Positions 45,415 through 60,440 of a stretch of 64,000 nt of DNA are shown piece after piece; position 1 is the first letter of the stretch, and the number at the start of each line of letters is the position of its first letter. The notes under the pieces are model-generated. The model was not told where the DNA came from, made no database searches, and was given only the letters and a program-made list of their open reading frames with translations. Both the position numbers and the translations under genes were made by a program. The stretch is from Desulfobacterales bacterium. Its GTDB lineage: Bacteria; Desulfobacterota; Desulfobacteria; Desulfobacterales; JAIPEE01. The stretch covers positions 62,001-126,000 of the forward strand of contig JAIPEE010000004.1 in assembly GCA_021737275.1 (NCBI GenBank). The letters run 5' to 3'.

Positions 45415-45867
45415 TTATTTGGGAAACATCGAAAAAACCGATTTCGGTGATTCAATTATTTTTTGGATTTTTTCCTGTGTTTCAATTTTTTCCTCTTTGT
45501 CTTTTATTTTCCATGCACCTTCGATTTTTCGAACAAGTTCAAAAATATCACAAGGCTTTGTCAGATAATCGTACGCACCAAGTTTGACTGCTTCCAACGC
45601 CGAATCGATAGATCCATGCCCTGTAAGCATAAGAATTTGCGTTAACACACCCAGTTTTTTAATTTCTTTCAATGTCGCCAAACCGTCCATGCCCGGCATT
45701 TTCAAGTCCAACACCACAACATCAAAGTTGGTTTTTTCAAGTTCCAGAAGCGCATCTTCACCATTATGGACAGTGGTCACATTGTATTTACGGGTTATTA
45801 AAAGTTTTGCCATATTCCCGGCAAATATCTCTTCATCATCTACGATTAATATTTTTGATCCGATCAT
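45415..45867 (-). CDS. Single-domain response regulator (CheY-like)
   Basis: The ~150-residue protein is a receiver domain with no effector domain: acidic pair DDE near residue 10, phospho-acceptor D54 in VVVLDLKMPG, T82 (MLTGHGS) and K104 (YLTKPCD). The final ~35 residues are a charged helix. The ATG at 45867 follows AGGAGG; the ATG at 45882 overlaps that site. It starts 48 bases after the Cache histidine kinase gene on the same strand, so it is probably the phospho-target of that kinase. With no DNA-binding domain it should act by protein contact. Confidence 0.93.
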   Translation of the reverse strand: MIGSKILIVDDEEIFAGNMAKLLITRKYNVTTVHNGEDALLELEKTNFDVVVLDLKMPGMDGLATLKEIKKLGVLTQILMLTGHGSIDSALEAVKLGAYDYLTKPCDIFELVRKIEGAWKIKDKEEKIETQEKIQKIIESPKSVFSMFPK

Positions 45868-45915
45868 TTTATTCCTCCTCATGCTGCTTATTAATAAAAA
45901 ATCGGGTTTGATTCT

Positions 45916-47691
45916 TTAATCCCGATCGGGCTTTTTCATATCGTCTAATAATTTTTGGGGTGGACTGTAGGGTAGAAAAATTTCAAACTCCGCTCCTTCA
46001 CCGACAGTGCTTTTTACAGTTATATTTCCGCCAAGCCGCTTTATAGTACTGAAGCAGATTGAAAGCCCTAACCCTGTACCTTTGCCCACGGGCTTAGTCG
46101 TAAAAAACGGGTCAAATATTTTTTCCATCCGATCAGGTGAAATCCCGGAACCGGTATCGGCTATACTAATTATTATCCCGGGTTTTTTTTTGGTCGAACG
46201 GGTTCGAATGGTTATGGTTCCGAAGGATGTATTTTCACAGGCATCGATGGCGTTGATAATTATATTCAGCAACACTTGCTGCAATTGAGAAGGATCCGAC
46301 TGTAAGGCCGGCAGATTTTCCTCCAGATGGGAAAAGAATTTAATGCCGCCGGATCCGGCCTCTCTTTCCATGAGCTCGATTACTTCCTGTATAAAATCAT
46401 TAAGGTCAAAAGACTCGATTACCGATTGGGTTCGCCGGGCAAATCGAAGCAGGTTGTAGGTTATGCGTTTGCATCGATGAATTTGAATGTCAATCTGTGC
46501 CATGGAATCACAGAACTGCTCTTTGAAGTCCGGGTCCGAAATCGGTTTTTGCATTTCCAAGTCTATCATGATTTGCCGCTCAGTTGATATAATGGCAAGG
46601 GGATTGTTAATTTCATGAGCCACGCCGGCCGACAACTGCCCGATGGCGGCCAGTTTACCGGTTTGTACAAGCTGTTTATTCAGATTTTCCGCTTCCCCAT
46701 CTCGTTTTTTAATGATGCATATCATATGTCTTGTGATCAGAATCACCACAACCAGTATGATGATTGCACTTAAATGGAGAAAAATAAGTACCGCATAATT
46801 AGCAAGATTAACATCGCTAAAGGCTTCTGCGTAGTTCTGTTTGACTACAAGCTTCCAGCAGGGCTCCGAGAGCCAGGCCTGACTCATAATTTGCCGGGGG
46901 ATCTTTTTCTGACTGTTACTGTCTGTGTAGCTCTCCTGAATGCAAGTCTGGATGCCATCATAAAATTCATCAACAGGGAAGGGGGAGCTATCCAAAATTT
47001 TCCCACTGTAACGGGGGCTTGTTTGATATATTCCCTGCTGATTGACTATAAAAACTTCCCCGGTTTCACCGATTTTGACATTTTCAACCAAACTTCGGAA
47101 AACCTCCGTATCGATGGTGGCCCTTAGAATCCATTTTTCATTGTTATGGGTTGCCGTTACCGCAATCACAAAATGGGGTTCTTTTCGAAAACCCATAAAC
47201 ATGTCACTGATATAGATGCCTTTGTTCATAACGGCCTTGAACCAGAATGTTTCCGAGTAGTTTTTATCCAGCAGATCGTAAGGCCCGACATAGGCAAGAT
47301 GGCGGCCCGTTGAATCAATGACACCAAGGTCCGTGATGGATCGATACTCCCGGTTAATAAGTTTAAAAATATCATTCAGATTTGAAGGAACTGTCAGGAA
47401 ATCTTTAGAATGAGTTTCAGCAATAAGCTGTAGTTTTGAACTGCGTTCTTTTATAAACAGTTCAATAATATTACGGTGATGTTCCAACTCGGTCCGAAAA
47501 GAACTGATCATCCGGGATTTAGCAAACCGGGCATAGTAAATATTTATCCCCCAACCCGCCACCAGCAATGGAACCAGGGAGCATACCACCGTCAACAAGA
47601 CCAATCGTCTGGTTAATCTGGTGTAATAAGTGTTGTGCCCTTTTTCTAAATCATGGTTGCTGTCATGATCGGGTAGTAATTTTTCAGCCAT
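45916..47691 (-). CDS. Cache-domain membrane histidine kinase
   Basis: The 591-residue protein has membrane segments at ~29-53 and ~298-320 with a periplasmic Cache sensor between (DLGVIDSTGRHLAYVGPYD, GIYISDMFMGFR). A HisKA domain follows with phospho-acceptor H359 in GVAHEINNPLAII, and an HATPase domain with NIIINAIDACE, DTGSGISPDRM and GKGTGLGLSI. All kinase motifs are intact. The sensor is clearly paralogous to that of the kinase at 50417, aligning across DLGVIDSTGRHLAYVGPY and the FMGFR..PHF region. The next gene, a receiver-only protein, is its likely partner. Confidence 0.94.
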   Translation of the reverse strand: MAEKLLPDHDSNHDLEKGHNTYYTRLTRRLVLLTVVCSLVPLLVAGWGINIYYARFAKSRMISSFRTELEHHRNIIELFIKERSSKLQLIAETHSKDFLTVPSNLNDIFKLINREYRSITDLGVIDSTGRHLAYVGPYDLLDKNYSETFWFKAVMNKGIYISDMFMGFRKEPHFVIAVTATHNNEKWILRATIDTEVFRSLVENVKIGETGEVFIVNQQGIYQTSPRYSGKILDSSPFPVDEFYDGIQTCIQESYTDSNSQKKIPRQIMSQAWLSEPCWKLVVKQNYAEAFSDVNLANYAVLIFLHLSAIIILVVVILITRHMICIIKKRDGEAENLNKQLVQTGKLAAIGQLSAGVAHEINNPLAIISTERQIMIDLEMQKPISDPDFKEQFCDSMAQIDIQIHRCKRITYNLLRFARRTQSVIESFDLNDFIQEVIELMEREAGSGGIKFFSHLEENLPALQSDPSQLQQVLLNIIINAIDACENTSFGTITIRTRSTKKKPGIIISIADTGSGISPDRMEKIFDPFFTTKPVGKGTGLGLSICFSTIKRLGGNITVKSTVGEGAEFEIFLPYSPPQKLLDDMKKPDRD

Positions 47692-47988: not shown

Positions 47989-50433
47989 TCATCTAAAGTT
48001 ATCCCAATATCGGCTTTGAACCTCGATTACTTTTTCCAGAATCGGCAGACGGCGGCGGGATTCTTTGATTTTTGCAATTTTTTCCGGGAGCAGCGTTCCG
48101 GCATTACACAACTCCTTCATCATGGAAAGGCCGCACTTCTCTATTCCCTGGACACTGTATCCACCTTCCATAACAAAGGCTATTTTACCGCTGCAGACCC
48201 TTTCTGCTATTTCCAGCAGCAACCGGGTTATCAGGGCATATCCTTCCGGTGTTCCCTTCATGCCGCCGAGACGATCGTGTAAATATAAATCAAATCCACA
48301 TGAAACCAGCATAAATTCAGGACAATAACTATCTGCAAGAGGTGCGATAAGATCTATAACAATCTGTGCAAAATCACGATCGCCATGACCTTTTGCCAAC
48401 GGGATATTAACCGTAAACCCTTCTCCTTTTCCTGACCCTACTTCACCGAGCTTGCCGGTACCCGGATAGCAGGGGAACTGGTGCATGGAGACAAAAAGCA
48501 CGTCATCGGTATCATAAAAAGCAGCCTGCGTTCCGTTGCCATGATGTACATCAATGTCGACAATCATCACTTTTTTAACGGCGTATTCTTTTTTAAGATA
48601 ACCGGCCCCCAGCGCCACATTATTGAACAGACAAAATCCCATGACCTTATCGGGCTCTGCGTGATGACCCGGTGGACGAAGGAATGCAAAACCCCGGTCC
48701 GAGTCACCCCTCCATATGCCGTCGATAAGGCTGAATAGCGACCCCACAGCGAGTCGTGCCGTATCATAAGACCTTGCTGTCGTTTGGGTATCCAGGTCAA
48801 AAGATCTCAAAGATTTACCGGCAGTACGTGCGATACGTTCAATGTGTTCCGGTGTATGTATCCAGGCCAGTTGCTCAACGGTAGCCATGCGGGCAGGGAT
48901 CACCGCCCATTTTTCATGGAGACTTTTGTGGGCAAGAATCTTCTCGACGGCACGGTTTCGTTTGGCACTTTCAATGTGAAACACGTTTTCCAGATGATGA
49001 GAAAACCGTTCATCCTTGATTACCAGCACAGGGCGAACGATTGGCGGCGGCTTAATTTTGATTCGACCCTTTTCTGTTCCAAAAGAAAGCAGATGTTCTG
49101 TTTCCGGAATATTCGCTTTCTTTTTCAGTAGATATTCGGCTGCTGTTTTGGGAAACGCCAAATGTCTTTTTGACAACAGGCAGGCTTTTATAAACTCAAT
49201 GGCATATTGTCGTTGCCGGTTTTCAGCCTGTTGCCGACGGGGTTTTTTTGCCAGAATTTTAACCTGTTGCTCAATCAGCCTGCAAAGATCCTGAATAACC
49301 CTGGTGCCTGGCTCCCGGCAATTGTCCGCCATAATGAGAATGGTTTTCATCAGATACCCGGCCGGCTTTTTCAATGAATAAGCACAAAGACGTCGGGGGG
49401 TAAAACCGATGGATGAATAAAAGCGGCCGGCCCCTATCTCCGAATCAAGGAAGATCTCCTTAACGGACGGGAGTCGTTGCTTCCAGAGCATCCATATTCC
49501 GGCCATCAGAAAGGTCCCGATGCCTTTCAGATTGGCAGATTTACGATTATCCGGATACCGGTTGGTGTTGCGAAGGGTTGCGACATACCTGACTTCCAGG
49601 CCTTTGTAGAGCAGTTGTTCTTTTAACGAAAGATAAATAAGGCCCATGATATTGTTTTTTACTATACATGCGAAAAGGTTTTTTTCATGTTTTTTTTCAA
49701 GGCATCTCAGCAGAAACCTAACGTGGAAAAATTCCAGGTCAATGTGGGCGACCTGCATCAATGCATCAAGGCAATAGGGGAATTGAATAAAATGGGCTTT
49801 TATCCCGCTGCTCACCTCAGCGGTATAAAAAACGCCCCTATGGTTTTCGTCCATTTTCCGGGAGATAAAATCATCGACACAAGAGTCGCCTGCCCGTATA
49901 TCTTCTAGAAAAGAGATAAGTTGTTTGAGAAAAAGTGCTTTTTTTTTCTGTACTTGATTTGTATATGCAAGCTGTTTTTTTAAACGCTGAATAGAAAATT
50001 TTATTTCATGGATTACCATAAACTGCAGGCCTGACCGGTAAATATCCAGGGCTGCCTCCCGATAATCCAAAGGCGTGGCATTGCCGCTCAGCACTTGTTT
50101 TCGTAAACGTTCCCCATATTTGATCAGAAGGTGCTGTTCAATGACAGCCGTTCCATCATTAAAAAATGAAATTTTTTTTATGGGGACTTTTTGATCTTCA
50201 AATAAAAAATACAGGTTATCACCACCATTATCTTCACCCTGATGATCCGGAGCATCTATTCGGCCGGTACCGAACATGTCTGTAAGAGAATAACCGACTT
50301 CCGGATCTCTTTCGGAGATGGCATCAATGGCATGTTTTAGAGATTCTCTTTTTATCATGGGCCGTATGGATGCAACTATAGTAATTATTTTACCCAAAAA
50401 AACCGACTCAATGGTTTTATGAGATTGCGCCAT
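47989..50433 (-). CDS. GNAT acetyltransferase - HDAC-type deacetylase fusion
   Basis: The 814-residue protein has a ~230-residue N-terminal helical region of unknown type and a GNAT acetyltransferase-like domain at ~235-350 (NLKGIGTFLMAGIWMLW for acetyl-CoA binding, SEIGAGRFYSSIGF as the C-terminal GNAT motif). After a basic linker comes a class II-like HDAC/AcuC domain at ~467-775. Deacetylase residues are complete: H590-H591 (RPPGHHAEP), D628 and H630 in DIDVHHGNG, D715 in CGFDLY and Y759 in EGGYS. One protein may therefore both acetylate and deacetylate a lysine target, or the GNAT part may be regulatory. It overlaps the upstream kinase gene by 17 bases and precedes the second kinase. Confidence 0.88.
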   Translation of the reverse strand: MAQSHKTIESVFLGKIITIVASIRPMIKRESLKHAIDAISERDPEVGYSLTDMFGTGRIDAPDHQGEDNGGDNLYFLFEDQKVPIKKISFFNDGTAVIEQHLLIKYGERLRKQVLSGNATPLDYREAALDIYRSGLQFMVIHEIKFSIQRLKKQLAYTNQVQKKKALFLKQLISFLEDIRAGDSCVDDFISRKMDENHRGVFYTAEVSSGIKAHFIQFPYCLDALMQVAHIDLEFFHVRFLLRCLEKKHEKNLFACIVKNNIMGLIYLSLKEQLLYKGLEVRYVATLRNTNRYPDNRKSANLKGIGTFLMAGIWMLWKQRLPSVKEIFLDSEIGAGRFYSSIGFTPRRLCAYSLKKPAGYLMKTILIMADNCREPGTRVIQDLCRLIEQQVKILAKKPRRQQAENRQRQYAIEFIKACLLSKRHLAFPKTAAEYLLKKKANIPETEHLLSFGTEKGRIKIKPPPIVRPVLVIKDERFSHHLENVFHIESAKRNRAVEKILAHKSLHEKWAVIPARMATVEQLAWIHTPEHIERIARTAGKSLRSFDLDTQTTARSYDTARLAVGSLFSLIDGIWRGDSDRGFAFLRPPGHHAEPDKVMGFCLFNNVALGAGYLKKEYAVKKVMIVDIDVHHGNGTQAAFYDTDDVLFVSMHQFPCYPGTGKLGEVGSGKGEGFTVNIPLAKGHGDRDFAQIVIDLIAPLADSYCPEFMLVSCGFDLYLHDRLGGMKGTPEGYALITRLLLEIAERVCSGKIAFVMEGGYSVQGIEKCGLSMMKELCNAGTLLPEKIAKIKESRRRLPILEKVIEVQSRYWDNFR

Positions 50434-52102
50434 TCTTATGGATGGCCGGTTTCTCGAATTCCAGGGGCAGTGCTATAATAAAAAAAGTGCCCTTTTCCGG
50501 ACCTGAGTCGGCCCGGATGGTTCCCCCGAGCTTTTCGAGTATATCAAGGCAAATGGGCAACCCAAGTCCGGTTCCTTCCGGTTTGGTTGTATACAGGGGC
50601 TCAAAAATAGATTTAAGACTATCTGCCTCAATTCCGGGCCCATTATCGGTAATGGATATAGTTATCTCATTTTCACCGTACTGAGTTACCAGCGTAATTT
50701 CTCCATCGGACCCGATCGCAGAAATGGCATTTAGAACGATGTTTTGAAATACTTGTCTGATTTTTGTTCTGTCACTTCGAATAACCGGCAACGATGGTTG
50801 AAATTCTTTTTTAATACGGATATTACGAAGATGCAATTCTTTACCAAGAATCTCTGTAAGATTGTCCAATACCTTGTTAATATCGATATCCGTAATAATT
50901 GATTCACCCGGACGGATAAACTGTAAAAACCGATCCATGGCTTTTCGGCTCTGCGCAACCTGGGATTTTATTTGAGCCATGCCGTCTTTTATTTCTTTCG
51001 TTTTTTCGGGCTCCGTTAAATCCTGCAGCCAGGTTGCGGTTATATCGATGTTTGCCAGGGTATCGTTAATCTCCTGAAAAAAACTATTGGACAGTTCCAT
51101 TGCAGAGGAGATGTAACTGATGTGTCTGAGCTGTTTGTCTAGAATCAAAATGATTCGTTTTTTTGATTCTAGCCTTGAAACCAGGTAGTTGGTGGTGAGC
51201 AGTATTGTCAGCACCATCAGAAAACCACCCATCAGGAAGACCAGAATTGCAATATTTCTTGTCTGGTGCAGTGTTTTGAAGAGTTCTTTACGTTCCATTT
51301 GGACGACACAAATCCAGGGGACTTGTTTCTGCCAGGTCGTCAAAATAATAGATTTCCCGTTCTCGATCGTTCGGATGCCATCAAATGGTTCTATGGCGCT
51401 CAATTGTGATTGCGCCATCAGTTCACCACCTATCTTTGGCCGGGTTTGAAATAGGCCGTTTGTGTTTATCAGATAAGTATCTCCTTTTCTGTCTCCTGTG
51501 ATTTCAGAAACCATATTATCAAATATGTTGACGTTTATGGTTACCCGGATGATCCATTCGCTTCCATCACTGTTTTGTTTGACGGCAACGATAAAATGAG
51601 GAACATTTCTAAAACCCATAAAAATGTCGCTGACAAAGATCTCCCTGGCCATAACTGACTTGAACCATGGCGCATTTTTATAATTTGCGGTAAGCAAAGA
51701 GTAAGGGCCGACATAAGCGTTATGTTTTCCCTGGGCGTCAATGATTCCGATATCCTCAAAACAGGGAAACTGCCGGTGCAACGATTGGAAAACTGATTGG
51801 ATTCGTCCGGGAAGTGCCAGCTCAGCCAAAGTCTGTTGCTCGGAGATTAGTTTCAGGGCAACGATTCGTTCCGACAAAAAACGGTCTATGGATTTGTTGT
51901 GCTGGATTACTTCTGTTTTAAGCGAGTCGAGTGTTTTCTGTTTTAACTCACAGGCGAAATAATAATACAGCCCTCCGCCGATGAGGATCAGAGGCACAAA
52001 GGATGATACCAGTAGCGCCATAACTACCTTTTTCCATGTACGGCGAAAATAAGGATAATCATTGGGGCGGTTTTTTTTATCTATATGTGAAATCGCTGTC
52101 AT
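50417..52102 (-). CDS. Cache-domain histidine kinase homolog lacking the phospho-acceptor His
   Basis: The 561-residue protein has two membrane segments (~24-49 and ~283-305) around a periplasmic Cache sensor that closely parallels that of the kinase at 45916. In the DHp helix the position of the phospho-His is Gln343 (FFQEINDTLANID), which aligns without gaps with VAHEINNPLAIIS of the sister kinase. The ATP-binding domain is otherwise complete (FQNIVLNAISAIG, ITDNGPGIEADSL, GTGLGLPICLDIL). Autophosphorylation on the usual His is therefore impossible. It may be a pseudo-kinase that senses and gates the active sister kinase, or a phosphatase for a response regulator. It lies between the REC-CBS and GNAT-HDAC genes. 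Confidence 0.9.
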   Translation of the reverse strand: MTAISHIDKKNRPNDYPYFRRTWKKVVMALLVSSFVPLILIGGGLYYYFACELKQKTLDSLKTEVIQHNKSIDRFLSERIVALKLISEQQTLAELALPGRIQSVFQSLHRQFPCFEDIGIIDAQGKHNAYVGPYSLLTANYKNAPWFKSVMAREIFVSDIFMGFRNVPHFIVAVKQNSDGSEWIIRVTINVNIFDNMVSEITGDRKGDTYLINTNGLFQTRPKIGGELMAQSQLSAIEPFDGIRTIENGKSIILTTWQKQVPWICVVQMERKELFKTLHQTRNIAILVFLMGGFLMVLTILLTTNYLVSRLESKKRIILILDKQLRHISYISSAMELSNSFFQEINDTLANIDITATWLQDLTEPEKTKEIKDGMAQIKSQVAQSRKAMDRFLQFIRPGESIITDIDINKVLDNLTEILGKELHLRNIRIKKEFQPSLPVIRSDRTKIRQVFQNIVLNAISAIGSDGEITLVTQYGENEITISITDNGPGIEADSLKSIFEPLYTTKPEGTGLGLPICLDILEKLGGTIRADSGPEKGTFFIIALPLEFEKPAIHKNGAIS

Positions 52103-52161: not shown

Positions 52162-53007
52162 TTATTCAACCTCGTATTCTATAAATTCCAGAACATCTCG
52201 CATCCTTATAATGCCAATGACGGCACCTTCATTGGAAACAACCGGCATACTTCGAAATTTATGAGTAATCATTCGGTCCGCAACCTCTCTAAGTGTTGCA
52301 TCGGAGCCGGTTGTGATGGTTTTCCGGCACATAATATCTCCGATACATTTTTCCGGAAGCCATTGGGGGTGATGAGTGAGTGAATCCCATGTAATCTTCT
52401 GAAGCGGATGGTTTTCCCGGGCCGCAGTAATCAGATCACTTTTAGTAACCAGGCCCTGGAGCCGATCCAGGCGATCAGTAATAAATAAGGTATCCGCAGA
52501 CTTTTTTCCGGTGTATCGGTTGAAAAGGTCAAGCGCCGATGTTAACGGATCTTCAGATTTCAAAGGTAAAAAAGCAAACAGAATAATTTCTCCTGCTTTT
52601 TTTCTGGGCCAGAGTATCGGATGCCGCCGAATATGTTCGAGCTCACAGGCCGCCTGAACTTTTTCGGTTAGATCTTCAATGTCACAGGGCTTCATCAGAT
52701 AGTCAAAAGCGCCTTCCCGGACGGCCTGGACTCCGGACTCAAGGGAGGCATAACCGGTGAGCATAATGACTTCAGTATCAGGTGCAAGATTCTTGATATG
52801 GCGAAGCGTCTCGACTCCATCCATTCCCGGCATTTGATTATCCAGCAGAACAACATCGAAATCTTGTTCGGCCTGAATGATTTCAATCGCTTTAAAGCCG
52901 CTGAATGCCGTTTTGGTCTCAAATCCCCGAACTGCAAAGATCCTGGCCAGATTCATTACGAATGTTTCTTCGTCATCTACCAAAAGTATGCGGAATTTTT
53001 TGTTCAA
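52162..53007 (-). CDS. Response regulator with paired CBS domains (REC-CBS)
   Basis: The 281-residue protein has a receiver domain (acidic pair D11-D12, phospho-acceptor D56 in VVLLDNQMPG, T84, K106 in YLMKPCD) joined to two CBS domains at ~155-280 (VTKSDLITAARE; VIGIIRMRDVLEFIE). CBS pairs usually bind AMP, ATP or SAM, so the output could be switched both by phosphorylation and by adenine nucleotide. No DNA-binding domain is present, so the output is a protein contact. It precedes the His-less kinase gene on the same strand by 59 bases. Confidence 0.93.
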   Translation of the reverse strand: MNKKFRILLVDDEETFVMNLARIFAVRGFETKTAFSGFKAIEIIQAEQDFDVVLLDNQMPGMDGVETLRHIKNLAPDTEVIMLTGYASLESGVQAVREGAFDYLMKPCDIEDLTEKVQAACELEHIRRHPILWPRKKAGEIILFAFLPLKSEDPLTSALDLFNRYTGKKSADTLFITDRLDRLQGLVTKSDLITAARENHPLQKITWDSLTHHPQWLPEKCIGDIMCRKTITTGSDATLREVADRMITHKFRSMPVVSNEGAVIGIIRMRDVLEFIEYEVE

Positions 53008-53038: not shown

Positions 53039-53449
53039 CTAAACTTCCTGCCAGAGGCCTTTGAAAATGAAGTAAACAGATCCGAACATCAGAATCCACA
53101 GGGCGATAATAACGCCTGCCGTGATATGGCTTTTGGGTTTACTTTTGTTGAGAATTGTTTCTGCATGTGCCCTGCATTCGCTCATAATCGGTTCAGGAAT
53201 CATTTTTAATGCAATATAAATACCCAGGGGAACCAGGATAATATCATCGAAATATCCCAGAACAGGAATAAAATCAGGAATAAGGTCAATGGGACTGAAA
53301 GCGTAGCCGACCACACCAGTAGTGAACACTTTGGCATACCAGGGCGTTCTTGGGTCCATGCACGCCAGGTAAAGCGCGTAGAGATTTTTCTTGAGCGGTT
53401 TGGCCCACTCTCGGCAATTCTTAATAATATTGATTCGCAAGTGTTTCAT
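53039..53449 (-). CDS. YkvA-family (DUF1232) membrane protein
   Basis: The 136-residue protein has the DUF1232 core, with a pair of hydrophobic helices around the Asp-rich motif YAFSPIDLIPDFIPVLGYFDD. A basic N-terminus and a third hydrophobic segment near the C-terminus follow. The family is widespread and has no firmly known function. It is between the unknown membrane protein (53493) and the REC-CBS gene, on the same strand, and probably shares their transcript. Confidence 0.88.
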   Translation of the reverse strand: MKHLRINIIKNCREWAKPLKKNLYALYLACMDPRTPWYAKVFTTGVVGYAFSPIDLIPDFIPVLGYFDDIILVPLGIYIALKMIPEPIMSECRAHAETILNKSKPKSHITAGVIIALWILMFGSVYFIFKGLWQEV

Positions 53450-53492: not shown

Positions 53493-54020
53493 TTAATATG
53501 CAATGAAAAATATCATTGTTCCAAACAACAGGCAAGTGATCCACAGGCTATGACTGAAAGGCCCCTTTTTAATTGCTTGAAACCGAGCCTCCGGTTGTTT
53601 ATGTCCTTGGGAACACACATAGTGTATTCGTTTTTCCCCGATTTTATTGCAAAATGCACTTTTGCGTTTTACAGATACGCCGCATACGGATTTGCCGCCC
53701 GCCAAAGGTTTGCTGCAGGTCATCCGTGCTCCGATCAGAAAGCAAGTCAGATTGACTACCCAGTTCCAGGTACCGGCAATAATGGCAGCAGAGAAAAAAA
53801 ACATCATCATATCTCCCCTTGTAATTCCCATGCCTGCAAGGGCATCACCTATTTTTTCAGGCTGTAACGGCCCTTCCTGGCTACCGAAAAAGCCCAAGTA
53901 GTATAGAATAAAACATGCGCCCATCACTATCATAGTGATGCCGAAATTGGATGCCCGTTGTTGAAGGGATCGGCTTTTATGCCATTGGTTCATCGGTGTA
54001 TATTCTCCTGAGTAATTCAT
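53493..54020 (-). CDS. Membrane protein of unknown function with Cys-containing central loop
   Basis: I do not recognise this 175-residue protein. It has two or three membrane segments near the N-terminus (GITMIVMGACFILYYLGFF; MFFFSAAIIAGTWNWVVNLTCFLIGA) and one at the C-terminus (WITCLLFGTMIFFIAY). Between them is a basic loop with four Cys (TCSKPLA, SVCGVS, AFCNKI, YVCSQG), perhaps a metal or redox site. The ATG at 54020 follows GGGAG at seven bases. It appears to be the first gene of the signalling operon, after the TSUP terminator. Confidence 0.65.
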   Translation of the reverse strand: MNYSGEYTPMNQWHKSRSLQQRASNFGITMIVMGACFILYYLGFFGSQEGPLQPEKIGDALAGMGITRGDMMMFFFSAAIIAGTWNWVVNLTCFLIGARMTCSKPLAGGKSVCGVSVKRKSAFCNKIGEKRIHYVCSQGHKQPEARFQAIKKGPFSHSLWITCLLFGTMIFFIAY

Positions 54021-54143: not shown

Positions 54144-55187
54144 TTATCCTGCCAACTTTTTTATGATGCCGGGAGCAATGTTCCAGAAACAGATTACCGC
54201 TACGATAATACAATAAGAAGGTACAATAATTTTCCATAGCTTTTCCGGAAAGACCCTTGTCATATAAGGTGCGGCCACGGCTGAGAACATGGTGGCAATC
54301 ATCATGGACGGCAACAGCATATAATCGATCTGGACCCCGCTTGTGAGCAATGCAATCCATACAATGATGGCAAAAGTACTTACTGCACCTTCACAGATAG
54401 CGGTAACGGCGAGCATACTTTTAACCGGCACACCGGCCAAAAGGCCACCGATAGTGACAACCGGTCCGTATCCACCACCGCCAACCCCTTTATTGAATCC
54501 CGCCAGCGCCGCCCACCCAATCATTTTGCCGGGCCTGTAGGGCCGTTCCTTTCTTGACTGGAATACGGAAATAAAGCCCATCATCAGAAGGAGAATCGCC
54601 ACGTAAAGTTTGATCCAGACCTTATCGACATGCAGGATTTTGTATACGCCTACAATAGAAAGGCAGACAGCAGCGCACCCTGCCAGGGATATGATAAGCG
54701 AAAGCTTAACCGTTTCAGACATAGGGCTGAATTTCCATTCTACATTTTCAAACTCCCTGTGCAAAAAGGCTCCCACCAGACCGGCCACGCCTTGCTGAAT
54801 CATTACAACCGGGACAATCTGTCTGGGATCAAATCCGAGTACCAGCAAAATCGGCGTCAGAGCAGTGCCGAAACCCATACCTGCGGAAGCGTCCATGAAT
54901 TCAAAAAACGCCGCCAGCAGAACCACTGACCATATAATGTGCCAGGTATTTCCCGTCAGGCCGTGCGCAATGCTGTAGGCGGATTGAATTCTCACCGTCG
55001 GTTCAAAGGGATTACCGGCAAGCCAGATACCTATCAAAAATACCATGAAAAACACGACAATTCCGCCCAAAGCCGCCCTGAGATGCCGCCACTCGGGAAC
55101 CAGTCGCTCGAAAATAGTCTCCTTCTCTTTTTCGAGGTTCCGGGCAACTTCCCATCCCATCTGTTTTTGTATATTTACTTTTTCCAT
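54144..55187 (-). CDS. TSUP-family (TauE/SafE) anion exporter
   Basis: The 347-residue membrane protein has about eight hydrophobic segments and the TSUP pattern, with two glycine-rich conserved stretches (FMDASAGMGFGTALTPILLVLGFDPRQIVPVVMIQQG and GFNKGVGGGGYGPVVTIGGLLAG). TSUP members export sulfite, sulfoacetate or other sulfur or carbon anions; a sulfur role would suit a deltaproteobacterium. AAGGAGG lies six bases before the ATG. It is the upstream neighbour of the signalling operon but has its own terminator, and it diverges from the CaCA antiporter gene. Confidence 0.9.
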   Translation of the reverse strand: MEKVNIQKQMGWEVARNLEKEKETIFERLVPEWRHLRAALGGIVVFFMVFLIGIWLAGNPFEPTVRIQSAYSIAHGLTGNTWHIIWSVVLLAAFFEFMDASAGMGFGTALTPILLVLGFDPRQIVPVVMIQQGVAGLVGAFLHREFENVEWKFSPMSETVKLSLIISLAGCAAVCLSIVGVYKILHVDKVWIKLYVAILLLMMGFISVFQSRKERPYRPGKMIGWAALAGFNKGVGGGGYGPVVTIGGLLAGVPVKSMLAVTAICEGAVSTFAIIVWIALLTSGVQIDYMLLPSMMIATMFSAVAAPYMTRVFPEKLWKIIVPSYCIIVAVICFWNIAPGIIKKLAG

Positions 55188-56856: not shown

Positions 56857-58278
56857 TTATTTTTTTTTGTTTTGACCGGACAAGCTCCGGATGCTGTTGC
56901 CGTCAATGTCTACATCTTTCATCAGTCGGTGAAGATATTGGCGTTTAATGCCTGCTTTTTCAGCCGCTTTGCTGACATTGCCGGCGTTTTCTCTGAGCAG
57001 TGATTCAATGTACTGCTTGTGAAACATGTGGGTTACACGATCTTTTGCCTCATGAAAAGTAAGTCTGGTGAAGTCAGAACTTAAATCGGATTGAAGGTCT
57101 ATATCTTCATTTTCAAGAAACAGGTCTTTTACCTCCAACATTTGTGTTCTGCAGTAAATTACACCTCTTTCAATCGTGTTTTCCAACTCCCGAACATTGC
57201 CTGGAAAATCATTGGACATTATGGCCTGCATTGCTTCAGGTGAGATCTCCCGGATATCCTTTTGATAGAGTCGTGCATATTTTTTAAGGAAATGATGGCT
57301 CAATATTGGAATATCCTGCTTTCTCTCGTTGAGAGAGGGCAATTCAAAATTGATAACATTGAGCCGGTAATACAGATCTTCTCTAAAGGTTTTTTCTTTT
57401 ATGGCTGTTTTGAGATTACAATTGGTGGCAGCAATGAAACGCAAATCGGCTTTTTTTGTAGTTACGCTGCCGACCGGCTTATACTCACCTTCCTGAAGAA
57501 GTCTTAGCAGTTTGGTCTGCATCAACAGGCTGAGATCTCCAATTTCATCCAAAAATAATGTGCCTTCATGGGCCTCCTCTACCAGCCCTTTTTTATCTTT
57601 CCATGCCCCGGTAAATGCACCCTTGATGTGTCCGAAAAGCTCACTTTCCAAGACATTTTCGGGAATTGCCGTACAGTTTATGGTAATAAGTTTCCTTGTA
57701 CACCTCTGACTATGCCGGTGAATGGCCTTAGCGACAAGCTCTTTGCCGGTGCCGCTTGCTCCGGTGATCAGCACGGTGCCCATAGTGGGCGACACTTGCC
57801 GAATGCGTTCAAAAATTTCCTTCATTACCGGCGTCGACCCGATGAGAGAGGAAAAACAATTTTGATCGGCCAGTGCTTCCCGAAGGGTATCATTTTCCTT
57901 TAACATTTTCTGCCATTTCATGACCTGTTCTATGGTCACAAGAATACGCTCCCGTTTAAAAGGTTTGGAAATGTAGTCATGTGCGCCTTTCCGCGTCGCC
58001 TCTACAGCGGTATCAATTGTAGCGTAAGCGGTCATCATGATAACCGATACTTTCGGGTTCATTTTCTTTATTTTTTCAAGAAGCGCAATGCCGCCGATTT
58101 TGGGCATTTTCAGATCCGAGATTACAAGGTCAAACGGTTGGCTTTCAAACAACTCAAGGGCTTTAACCGGATCTGATTCGGTTGTAACTTCATGCGCCGT
58201 TTCATCGGTAATGATTCGTTCAATCAACAGCAGCATATCTTTTTCATCATCAATTACTAAAATTTTTCCTACCATCAT
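56857..58278 (-). CDS. NtrC-type sigma-54-dependent response regulator
   Basis: The 473-residue protein has a complete receiver domain (D10-D11 pair, phospho-acceptor D55 in LVISDLKMPK, conserved Thr and Lys), an AAA+ domain with Walker A GASGTGKE, GAFTGA loop (GHIKGAFTGAWK) and FLDEIGDL, and a C-terminal Fis-type helix-turn-helix (NAGNVSKAAEKAGIKRQYLHRLMKD). All key residues are kept, unlike the activator at 18866. The start overlaps the stop of the kinase gene by four bases (ATGA), so the two form a two-component pair. The CaCA promoter next door is a likely target. Confidence 0.95.
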   Translation of the reverse strand: MMVGKILVIDDEKDMLLLIERIITDETAHEVTTESDPVKALELFESQPFDLVISDLKMPKIGGIALLEKIKKMNPKVSVIMMTAYATIDTAVEATRKGAHDYISKPFKRERILVTIEQVMKWQKMLKENDTLREALADQNCFSSLIGSTPVMKEIFERIRQVSPTMGTVLITGASGTGKELVAKAIHRHSQRCTRKLITINCTAIPENVLESELFGHIKGAFTGAWKDKKGLVEEAHEGTLFLDEIGDLSLLMQTKLLRLLQEGEYKPVGSVTTKKADLRFIAATNCNLKTAIKEKTFREDLYYRLNVINFELPSLNERKQDIPILSHHFLKKYARLYQKDIREISPEAMQAIMSNDFPGNVRELENTIERGVIYCRTQMLEVKDLFLENEDIDLQSDLSSDFTRLTFHEAKDRVTHMFHKQYIESLLRENAGNVSKAAEKAGIKRQYLHRLMKDVDIDGNSIRSLSGQNKKK

Positions 58279-60440
58279 TCCTCACAATCTTTAATGGGCA
58301 GCTCCACTGTAAAGGTCACACCCCTGGTTTGACTGATACACTCTATTGTACCGCCAAATTTGGTAACAATACCGTAGCTTACAAAAAGCCCCAGACCGTT
58401 CCCTTCGCCTTCAGGTTTCGTAGTGTAAAATGGCTCAAATATGTGATCCAGATTCGCCGGGTCAACCCCGCTTCCTGTATCTCGGAGTATAACTCGTGCT
58501 TTCCGTCTTGCCTTATCAAGATAGGTACTTATTGTTATCGAACCCCCTCCGGGCATGGATGCAACCGCGTTGTTAATCAGGTTCAAAAACACCTGCTGCA
58601 GTTGATGCGTATCTCCATTAACCGGAGGAATCTCTTTTTCAAAATTAGTAAAAAGCTTAATCTGATTTATTTCAAGATTATGATGGACAACTCTGAGAAT
58701 TTCTTGAAGGCAGCGGTTCATGTCACAATACGCTGAATGTTCATCCCGTTCACGAGAGAAACTGAGAAGATTTTCCACAATTTTTTTGCAATGCAGTCCC
58801 TGACGTTCAATAATTTTCAGATCCTCATATTCCTGGCTGCCCGGCTTTTTTTTCCGTAATAACAGGTCACAAAAACCGAGGATAACGCCCAGCGGATTAT
58901 TGATTTCATGGGCAACTCCCGCTGCCAGCGTCCCGACTGATGCAAGTTTTTCTGCATTGATGAGATGCCGCTCCAGATTTCTTATTTCGGTAATATCCCT
59001 TGCAATACAAAGCACCGCAGTAATATTACCGTTCTTACTTTTCAAGGGCATGAAGTTGGCATTTATCCAAATATTTTTTCCGTTTATTTTAAATATCAAC
59101 TCATCATGAACGCTTTTATTTTTATTATAAACTTGTTGTAAAATATCGATCTGTCTCTTGGCGCTTTCTTCCGAAAAAGCTTCAAAAATGCTCTTTCCAA
59201 TAAGATTTTTCGGGCTTGTACCGAAGAAGGCGGCGGTAAAGCTGTTTGCCGATTGAAAGATCCCGTTTTTGTCGATGGTATAGATAAAGTCTTCTGCGCT
59301 TTCCACGAGAGAACGATAATTTTCCTCCGAACGACCCAGCTCTGCCGTTCTTATTCGTATCTGTTCTTTTAACCGTCCCGACCATCTCCTTTCAAGAAAC
59401 AGTATGGACAGTGCTGCCGAAAGAATAATGATAATAACAAAACCCTGAAGGCTCAATTGCCAGAGGTGGCCCTCTTCCAGGGCCTCTTCTATTTCCGAGA
59501 CTGGTGCCACCACCGCAACCGACCATTTTTGAGGAGGTTTATTAGAAATAGAGATAGGGGTAAAAGCGATCAGTTTGTTTATTTTACCTGTATTACCCCG
59601 GTGCCATCCTGAAACATATGAACCGGTGCCCTCATCCCCTTTGAGCATTTTTTCCTTCTGAATAAAATTGATTGTGTAAAAGGAAATGTCGGGATGTTTT
59701 TCCGAGCGAACAGTAAATGCGCTCTTTCCGATAAAAGACACATCCGGATGGTAGAGAAAATAGCCTTTTTCATCAATGATCCATGCATAACCGGTTTTCC
59801 CGGAGTGGATATCTTTTATAAAGGGTGCCAGAAATATGGAAATATTAATATGGAAAATCAGCAGCTCCGTTTCATCGCCAATTAACGGAGCGGCCATTAT
59901 CAGATGGATTTCAGAAGCGTTTGTCTGAGGCCTTGAAACCCACACCGAGTGGTCTGATGCCGCCTTAAGTTGAACCGGGTCCGTTATGTTAACGTCTATA
60001 TTTTCTATCTCCTTCCATGGTGAATGGGGGGTATACGAATATGTTATGCGGTTTTCAAGATTTACACTTTCAATTTTCCAGACACCGCTTTCCTGTACAC
60101 GGTTAAACTCGTTTTGAATTTCAAGATGCTGAAATGAGGGAGTGCTGTTCATGACAGCGATATTTTCAGATAGCAAAAGCAGCTCTTTTTGAAGAAAGCG
60201 CAGTTCCCGTTCAATTAAAGTTTTTACACTTCGGGCAACATAGAGCTGTTCCTCATTAAACTGCTTATCAACCACTTCGCGCATTTCACGACTTGACCAA
60301 AAACTAAGAATCGTTCCCAATGCAATGCAGGTTATTGCTATATAAACCACAATAAAAACAATACGGGATTCAATTTTTGGACGAGTTGCTCTAATCATAT
60401 AGTTGTTAACAGCAAACATCATGCCTATTACAGTAAACAC
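58275..60440 (-). CDS. Cache-PAS histidine kinase, partner of the NtrC-type regulator
   Basis: The 721-residue protein has a first membrane helix at ~26-48, a large periplasmic Cache domain (~50-315), a second helix (~329-350), a PAS domain (~370-490) and a HisKA/HATPase core with H511 in GVAHEINNPLGVI, FLNLINNAVASMP, DTGSGVDPANL and GEGNGLGLFVSYGI. It should sense a periplasmic ligand and phosphorylate the NtrC-type protein encoded immediately downstream (four-base overlap). The exact start is uncertain: ATG codons at 60440, 60422, 60419 and 60398 are all in frame, and none has a strong ribosome site. Confidence 0.92.
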   Translation of the reverse strand: MFTVIGMMFAVNNYMIRATRPKIESRIVFIVVYIAITCIALGTILSFWSSREMREVVDKQFNEEQLYVARSVKTLIERELRFLQKELLLLSENIAVMNSTPSFQHLEIQNEFNRVQESGVWKIESVNLENRITYSYTPHSPWKEIENIDVNITDPVQLKAASDHSVWVSRPQTNASEIHLIMAAPLIGDETELLIFHINISIFLAPFIKDIHSGKTGYAWIIDEKGYFLYHPDVSFIGKSAFTVRSEKHPDISFYTINFIQKEKMLKGDEGTGSYVSGWHRGNTGKINKLIAFTPISISNKPPQKWSVAVVAPVSEIEEALEEGHLWQLSLQGFVIIIILSAALSILFLERRWSGRLKEQIRIRTAELGRSEENYRSLVESAEDFIYTIDKNGIFQSANSFTAAFFGTSPKNLIGKSIFEAFSEESAKRQIDILQQVYNKNKSVHDELIFKINGKNIWINANFMPLKSKNGNITAVLCIARDITEIRNLERHLINAEKLASVGTLAAGVAHEINNPLGVILGFCDLLLRKKKPGSQEYEDLKIIERQGLHCKKIVENLLSFSRERDEHSAYCDMNRCLQEILRVVHHNLEINQIKLFTNFEKEIPPVNGDTHQLQQVFLNLINNAVASMPGGGSITISTYLDKARRKARVILRDTGSGVDPANLDHIFEPFYTTKPEGEGNGLGLFVSYGIVTKFGGTIECISQTRGVTFTVELPIKDCEE

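Follow-up and report, generated by a model that had tools for sequence, protein, structure and literature searches.

What is the role of a bacterial protein in which an acetyltransferase and a deacetylase are joined in one chain? The question is raised by a reading frame (47989-50433, minus strand; 814 aa from an ATG start) in the window, the 64,000-nucleotide stretch of Desulfobacterales DNA analysed here. The original prediction recognised a GNAT-like domain and a complete HDAC-type deacetylase domain in this single frame, which is borne out by Pfam, by profiles of the homologues and by fold matching. The roles suggested for it were a self-resetting acetylation switch or a GNAT-like domain that only senses acetyl-CoA. 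Based on sequence comparisons, the best reading is instead that the fusion may serve a conserved sensory cassette as its effector, rather than act as a self-resetting enzyme, its part in signalling being put forward as a hypothesis.

Domain organisation and conserved residues

The annotated start of the fusion overlaps the 3′ end of the upstream kinase gene, HKa, by 17 bp. Relatives were gathered by protein searches of genome collections and 30 of their N-terminal halves (N-halves) were aligned (alignment A1). Most of these homologues start at M26 of the window protein (MIKRE...), and residues 1-21 have low confidence in the AlphaFold model; it is therefore probable that the true start is M26, giving a protein of 789 aa (47989-50358). 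From there, the minus strand encodes an N-terminal helical domain (residues ~26-195; 49849-50358), a GNAT-fold domain (~200-357; 49363-49836), a helical connector (358-455; 49069-49362), and an HDAC/arginase-fold deacetylase domain (473-775; 48109-49017). The N-terminal domain carries the conserved block MIKRExIKQAIDAI in A1 and is modelled as helices with a beta hairpin, while the connector, which is also conserved, ends close to the linker at which the two halves separate in split homologues. Neither has a Pfam match. The overall pTM of the full-length AlphaFold model is 0.57, so the arrangement of the GNAT and HDAC domains is not fixed by the model.

In the window sequence alone the signal for the GNAT domain is weak, with sub-threshold Pfam matches to PF13508 and PF13673 (E ~0.1) around residues 299-345 and a best GNAT profile score of 14.2 bits, below the curated cut-off of 23.6. 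It is from the homologues, the PDB profile, and the predicted structure that the GNAT fold of the N-half becomes a firm assignment. Acetyltransf_10 is matched by 23 of the 30 homologue N-halves (best 3.6e-4) and Acetyltransf_7 by 11, and no Pfam family other than GNATs was matched among them. Of the 13 PDB chains found with a profile of the GNAT segment (A3; best E=0.004), nearly all are named acetyltransferases. Likewise, the PDB matches found by Foldseek for the AlphaFold model of residues 1-470 (mean pLDDT 85.9, pTM 0.84) are GNATs: archaeal Ard1/NatA (NAT; best E=2.2e-4), NatC, AtaT, and Gcn5. The domain first placed at about residues 235-350 is thus supported by homologue profiles, PDB profile, and Foldseek, at a slightly larger extent; the segment passes as a GNAT through the homologue profile and the fold, the window sequence by itself staying under the Pfam cut-offs.

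Seven residues of this domain (A285, G304, G306, E332, Y339, G343, and F344) are invariant in all 44 N-halves compared, among them the GxG of the pyrophosphate loop (G304/G306) and the YxxxGF motif (Y339, G343, F344). E280, which lies on the strand preceding the loop, is kept in 42 of the 44. When aligned by MAFFT with yeast Gcn5, represented by one single sequence with its identity confirmed against the PDB, E280 falls on the Gcn5 strand AEIVFCA, where the Glu is catalytic, and KGxG falls on the RGYG loop. This placement is only suggestive, and a specific kinship with Gcn5 was rejected, hhalign against the single yeast sequence having given no useful match. On the basis of its conserved residues, the GNAT half is predicted to be catalytic. 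The alternative, in which it is a non-catalytic acetyl-CoA sensor gating the HDAC half, draws on the divergence of the GNAT sequence and on the Gln/Arg that usually opens the pyrophosphate-loop motif, which is not conserved in A1; however, E280 and Y339 have been kept beyond the need of CoA binding alone, making such a sensor unlikely.

The HDAC half is matched strongly by Pfam Hist_deacetyl (PF00850) at residues 486-773 (E=1.1e-87; 294.6 bits against a cut-off of 27.9). Its metal and catalytic residues are exactly where they had first been placed and are invariant wherever the homologues cover them: H590, H591, D628, and H630 in all 43 HDAC halves, and D715 and Y759, together with L722, in all 42 rows that reach those positions. 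This half is closest to HDAC6, HDAC15, and HdaH, with HDAC2 much lower, and is therefore of the class II type; the full-length model matches HdaH, Kdac1, and HDAC6 (E ~1e-21). The gatekeeper tripeptide is R721-L722-G723 (R-L-G). In the polyamine-specific HDAC10 the gatekeeper is P-E-G, and changing the Glu to Leu strongly raised lysine deacetylation (PMC11532494). A Leu gatekeeper in place of the HDAC10 Glu favours a lysine deacetylase as the predicted function of the HDAC half.

Other deacetylase genes were observed in the same genome. On contig C69 (L075:5505-8947) a sirtuin, an AcuB homologue of full length (matching Geobacillus AcuB at 1.3e-27 over residues 3-214), a class-II-type HDAC, and a CooC/MinD-like ATPase stand in a row that adjoins a RACo-type corrinoid activator; possibly, the AcuB-deacetylase pair serves acetyl-CoA synthase/CO dehydrogenase. 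A second sirtuin adjoins an amidase and an AMP-binding acyl-CoA ligase on contig C68 (L076:4754-8506). The protein encoded on contig C59 (L010:436-2208), in which an HDAC domain (272-577) follows about 270 residues that have no Pfam match, is possibly a second multidomain deacetylase.

The surrounding cassette and its proposed role

Comparison of the window operon with the loci of 20 relatives, supported by Pfam, revealed a common order of genes, given here in the direction of transcription with the minus-strand coordinates of the window. Often conserved furthest upstream are a dCache-PAS histidine kinase (58275-60440) and the NtrC-type sigma-54 activator with which it is paired (56857-58278). 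These are followed by a TauE/SafE (TSUP) permease (54144-55187), a conserved 175-aa protein in which hydrophobic segments can be seen by eye and which has no Pfam match (53493-54020), a DUF1232 protein present in part of the loci only (53039-53449), a response-regulator receiver fused to a CBS pair (52162-53007), the dCache sensor kinase-like protein HKa (50417-52102), the GNAT-HDAC fusion, the dCache histidine kinase HKb (45916-47691), and a single-domain response regulator (45415-45882). In nearly every locus the fusion gene lies between the two dCache kinase genes. The receiver-CBS gene is present in about 15 of the 20 loci and was not found in about five, so it cannot be essential. Neither Pfam nor the locus comparison identified a DNA-binding regulator within the core cassette. 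With inputs and a relay and no DNA-binding output, the core cassette has the enzyme-like GNAT-HDAC protein as its candidate effector.

The two kinases that flank the fusion differ at the phospho-accepting site. HKa, directly upstream, has dCache and HATPase_c domains and no HisKA by Pfam; in the window its ATPase domain is kept and, when aligned with its paralogue HKb, Gln is found at the position of the H-box His. This His is absent in 19 of 20 HKa proteins, where Arg, Ser, Glu, Gln, or others are found instead; the replacing letter depends upon the alignment, but the absence of His does not. The exception (L053) has a degenerate ATPase domain. HKa is shortened to about 350 aa in five of the loci (L046, L048, L049, L053, and L060), two of which (L053 and L060) have also lost the ATPase motifs. 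Downstream of the fusion, HKb has a canonical H-box, HEINNPL (as in the window) or HEINNPI, with the His kept in 17 of 17. The receiver Asp is invariant in both kinds of receiver, 15 out of 15 receiver-CBS proteins and 18 out of 18 single-domain receivers.

The permease is closely linked to the fusion. Relatives of TauE (E below 1e-60) were found in 41 of the 390 genomes of the class, 39 of which also carry the N-half (Fisher p=1.7e-42, on raw genome counts that ignore kinship). In 36 of these 39 pairs a single contig carries both, at a distance of 2-11.4 kb. Of the genomes that have the N-half and lack TauE, several have the gene near a contig edge or are fragmentary, and genomes with neither TauE nor the N-half occur in the same families (f3, f5, f12, f14). 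According to a survey of sulfate reducers, TSUP function is not predictable from sequence (PMC5840216).

It is tentatively proposed, as a reading that could well be correct, that this gene encodes a GNAT-HDAC effector through which a membrane two-component cassette, linked to the TauE/SafE permease, delivers its output. The kinases and receivers are connected to the fusion by gene order and co-occurrence, and their interactions with it, its target, and the direction of control are inferred. A ligand at the periplasmic dCache sensors would set the kinase/phosphatase state of HKb, which would phosphorylate the single-domain receiver and the receiver-CBS protein, with the His-less HKa as a DivL-like allosteric partner. 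HKa and the receivers would then determine whether acetylation by the GNAT half or Zn-dependent deacetylation prevails at the lysine or lysines of a shared target. That target is probably either another component of this system (a receiver, a kinase, or the permease) or an enzyme of central acetyl-CoA metabolism, and the GNAT half would report acetyl-CoA supply. Such an arrangement suggests that membrane signals in this operon may be passed on by acetylation. It is a more doubtful proposition that the His-less sensor kinase signals without phosphotransfer, directly controlling the joined acetyltransferase/deacetylase, so that lysine acetylation would be the output of the pathway. The NtrC regulator and its kinase nearby could also be the true output, with the fusion as an accessory.

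The original prediction of opposing activities remains the simplest reading, both active-site signatures being conserved, but the proposed self-resetting is less likely than external control, because the two-component cassette around the fusion, which includes a His-less kinase and a TauE permease, is conserved. A housekeeping switch resembling AcuA/AcuC has also been considered, in which the fusion reversibly acetylates the AMP-forming acetyl-CoA synthetase (Acs) or other acyl-CoA ligases, the sensors doing no more than co-regulating expression of the fusion. There is an Acs in the genome (TIGR02188, 933 bits), and GNAT, CBS, and HDAC parts come together in one operon, as they do in acuABC (PMC13121692). 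However, this Acs is encoded on another contig (C17; the window is on C77) beside an aldehyde ferredoxin oxidoreductase, there is no Acs gene in the cassette, the genome already has its full-length AcuB homologue adjoining another HDAC and a sirtuin, and the fusion tracks the permease, all of which leave such a switch with a low probability. Less probable still is a cycle of N-acetylation and deacetylation of a small molecule, such as an amine or a sulfonate that the TauE permease would handle. Although the permease link is tight and polyamines can be substrates of the classical deacylases of bacteria (PMC11532494), the gatekeeper is Leu rather than Glu, opposing enzymes in one chain would be metabolically futile, and the operon encodes mostly signalling proteins.

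If the externally controlled GNAT-HDAC effector proposed here is borne out, one operon with known parts would couple the two main protein-modification systems of bacteria, His-Asp phosphorelay and lysine acetylation. How acetylation is targeted and regulated in bacteria is largely an open question, which the cassette makes testable, since it would provide a sensor, a relay, a writer, an eraser, and a candidate transporter target, with writer and eraser naturally in one chain.

Distribution, and fused and split forms

The N-half was found in 48 of the 390 genomes of the class, all of them from the same order of Desulfobacterota, and, in a phylum-wide sample of 395 genomes, in a single one (G761, of the same phylum). 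With N-half identity of 34-46 % across many families, the GNAT-HDAC architecture is a heritable family and not a curiosity of one genome. G761, which is outside the order, has the same order of frames around its fusion (L077), where the HKb-side kinase and the receiver-CBS protein were checked by Pfam, suggesting that the cassette reached this genome as one transferred unit. A search of plasmids with the N-half gave no match, and in the IMG/VR viral collection there were distant viral HDACs only. A class II HDAC of Hyperionvirus (BFVD A0A3G5A832, 802 aa) aligns with the full fusion model over 749 columns, but the N-terminal part of this viral protein is perhaps not a GNAT.

Most members of the family are fused (36 of the 43 tree rows). 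Seven (L003, L016, L017, L018, L020, L031, and L121) encode the HDAC half in a neighbouring frame of its own. In the loci examined by tblastn the split halves part at or near the linker (~450-466), less clearly in L016, where there are unread bases at the cut. The fused or split label changes twice on the tree, on which the split rows group together, compared with ~6.7 changes for shuffled labels. The split state thus passes on by descent, and the halves are partners whether joined or not. The fused gene of the window is itself placed among the split rows, where the branching is not resolved. Frameshift errors are unlikely to be behind the split alleles, given that the split rows group together and that, in the loci examined, the cut lies at the linker, with L016 unsure. 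As seven relatives encode the halves in adjacent frames, the covalent link is not essential, and on these comparisons the functional unit is likely to be a GNAT-HDAC pair or complex. Fusion would keep the two activities at 1:1, and two neighbouring genes could replace it.

Three loci (L121, L122, and L015) look decayed. Two of them, L015 and L121, are copies of the fusion family in one genome (G074): the HDAC half of one is truncated and the N-half of the other is broken over two frames, perhaps decay in progress. It is highly improbable that the fusion is accidental or assembly-derived, or that the GNAT has decayed and only the HDAC half functions, for although some relatives are split or decayed, most rows are fused, the split rows cluster, and the GNAT motifs are invariant; an assembly artefact or chance fusion as such is ruled out by the homologues, the fused loci, and the tree.

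Comparison with known systems

The GNAT half shares its fold, GxG loop, and FYxxxGF motif with the NAT/Ard1 and Gcn5 branches of the GNAT superfamily, from which it differs in being too divergent for Pfam thresholds and in lying between two helical domains that have no Pfam match. The HDAC half has the same fold and catalytic residues as HdaH and the other class II classical deacylases (Bordetella HDAH, Acinetobacter Kdac1, and Pseudomonas HDAH). These have been solved as stand-alone enzymes, whereas the window enzyme is fused to GNAT and helical domains. A word search of the main text of a 2024 survey on the classical deacylases of bacteria did not bring up any fused or multidomain form. Likewise, a phrase search of open-access papers for GNAT-HDAC fusion proteins was empty, which is weak evidence, as most subscription papers are outside its scope.

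AcuC is a class I-like deacetylase, whereas the HDAC of the cassette is closest to class II/HdaH. In Bacillus, AcuA acetylates AcsA, while AcuB, a CBS pair with an ACT domain, binds and inhibits the deacetylase AcuC under the control of adenine nucleotides or Ap4A (PMC13121692, PMC13039410). As in AcuABC, an acetyltransferase, a CBS protein, and an HDAC-type deacetylase with opposing acetylation activities are encoded together here; in the cassette, however, GNAT and HDAC are in one chain, sensors and a permease are added, and the CBS pair is carried on a phospho-receiver with no ACT domain. Among the 60 PDB matches listed for the window receiver-CBS protein, which are receivers and CBS proteins, there is no AcuB. 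Membership of AcuABC was rejected based on the lack of an ACT domain, the lack of an adjoining Acs, and the class II type of the HDAC.

In alphaproteobacteria, the pseudo-kinase DivL and the response regulator DivK control CckA (PMC9430884). The cassette is similar in logic only: it pairs a pseudo-kinase with a canonical kinase and adds a single-domain response regulator. No counterpart of CtrA or ChpT was identified in the cassette, both of its kinases carry dCache sensors, and the GNAT-HDAC protein lies between them. The cassette is a member of neither AcuABC nor DivL/CckA/DivK, but by analogy may be likened to both.
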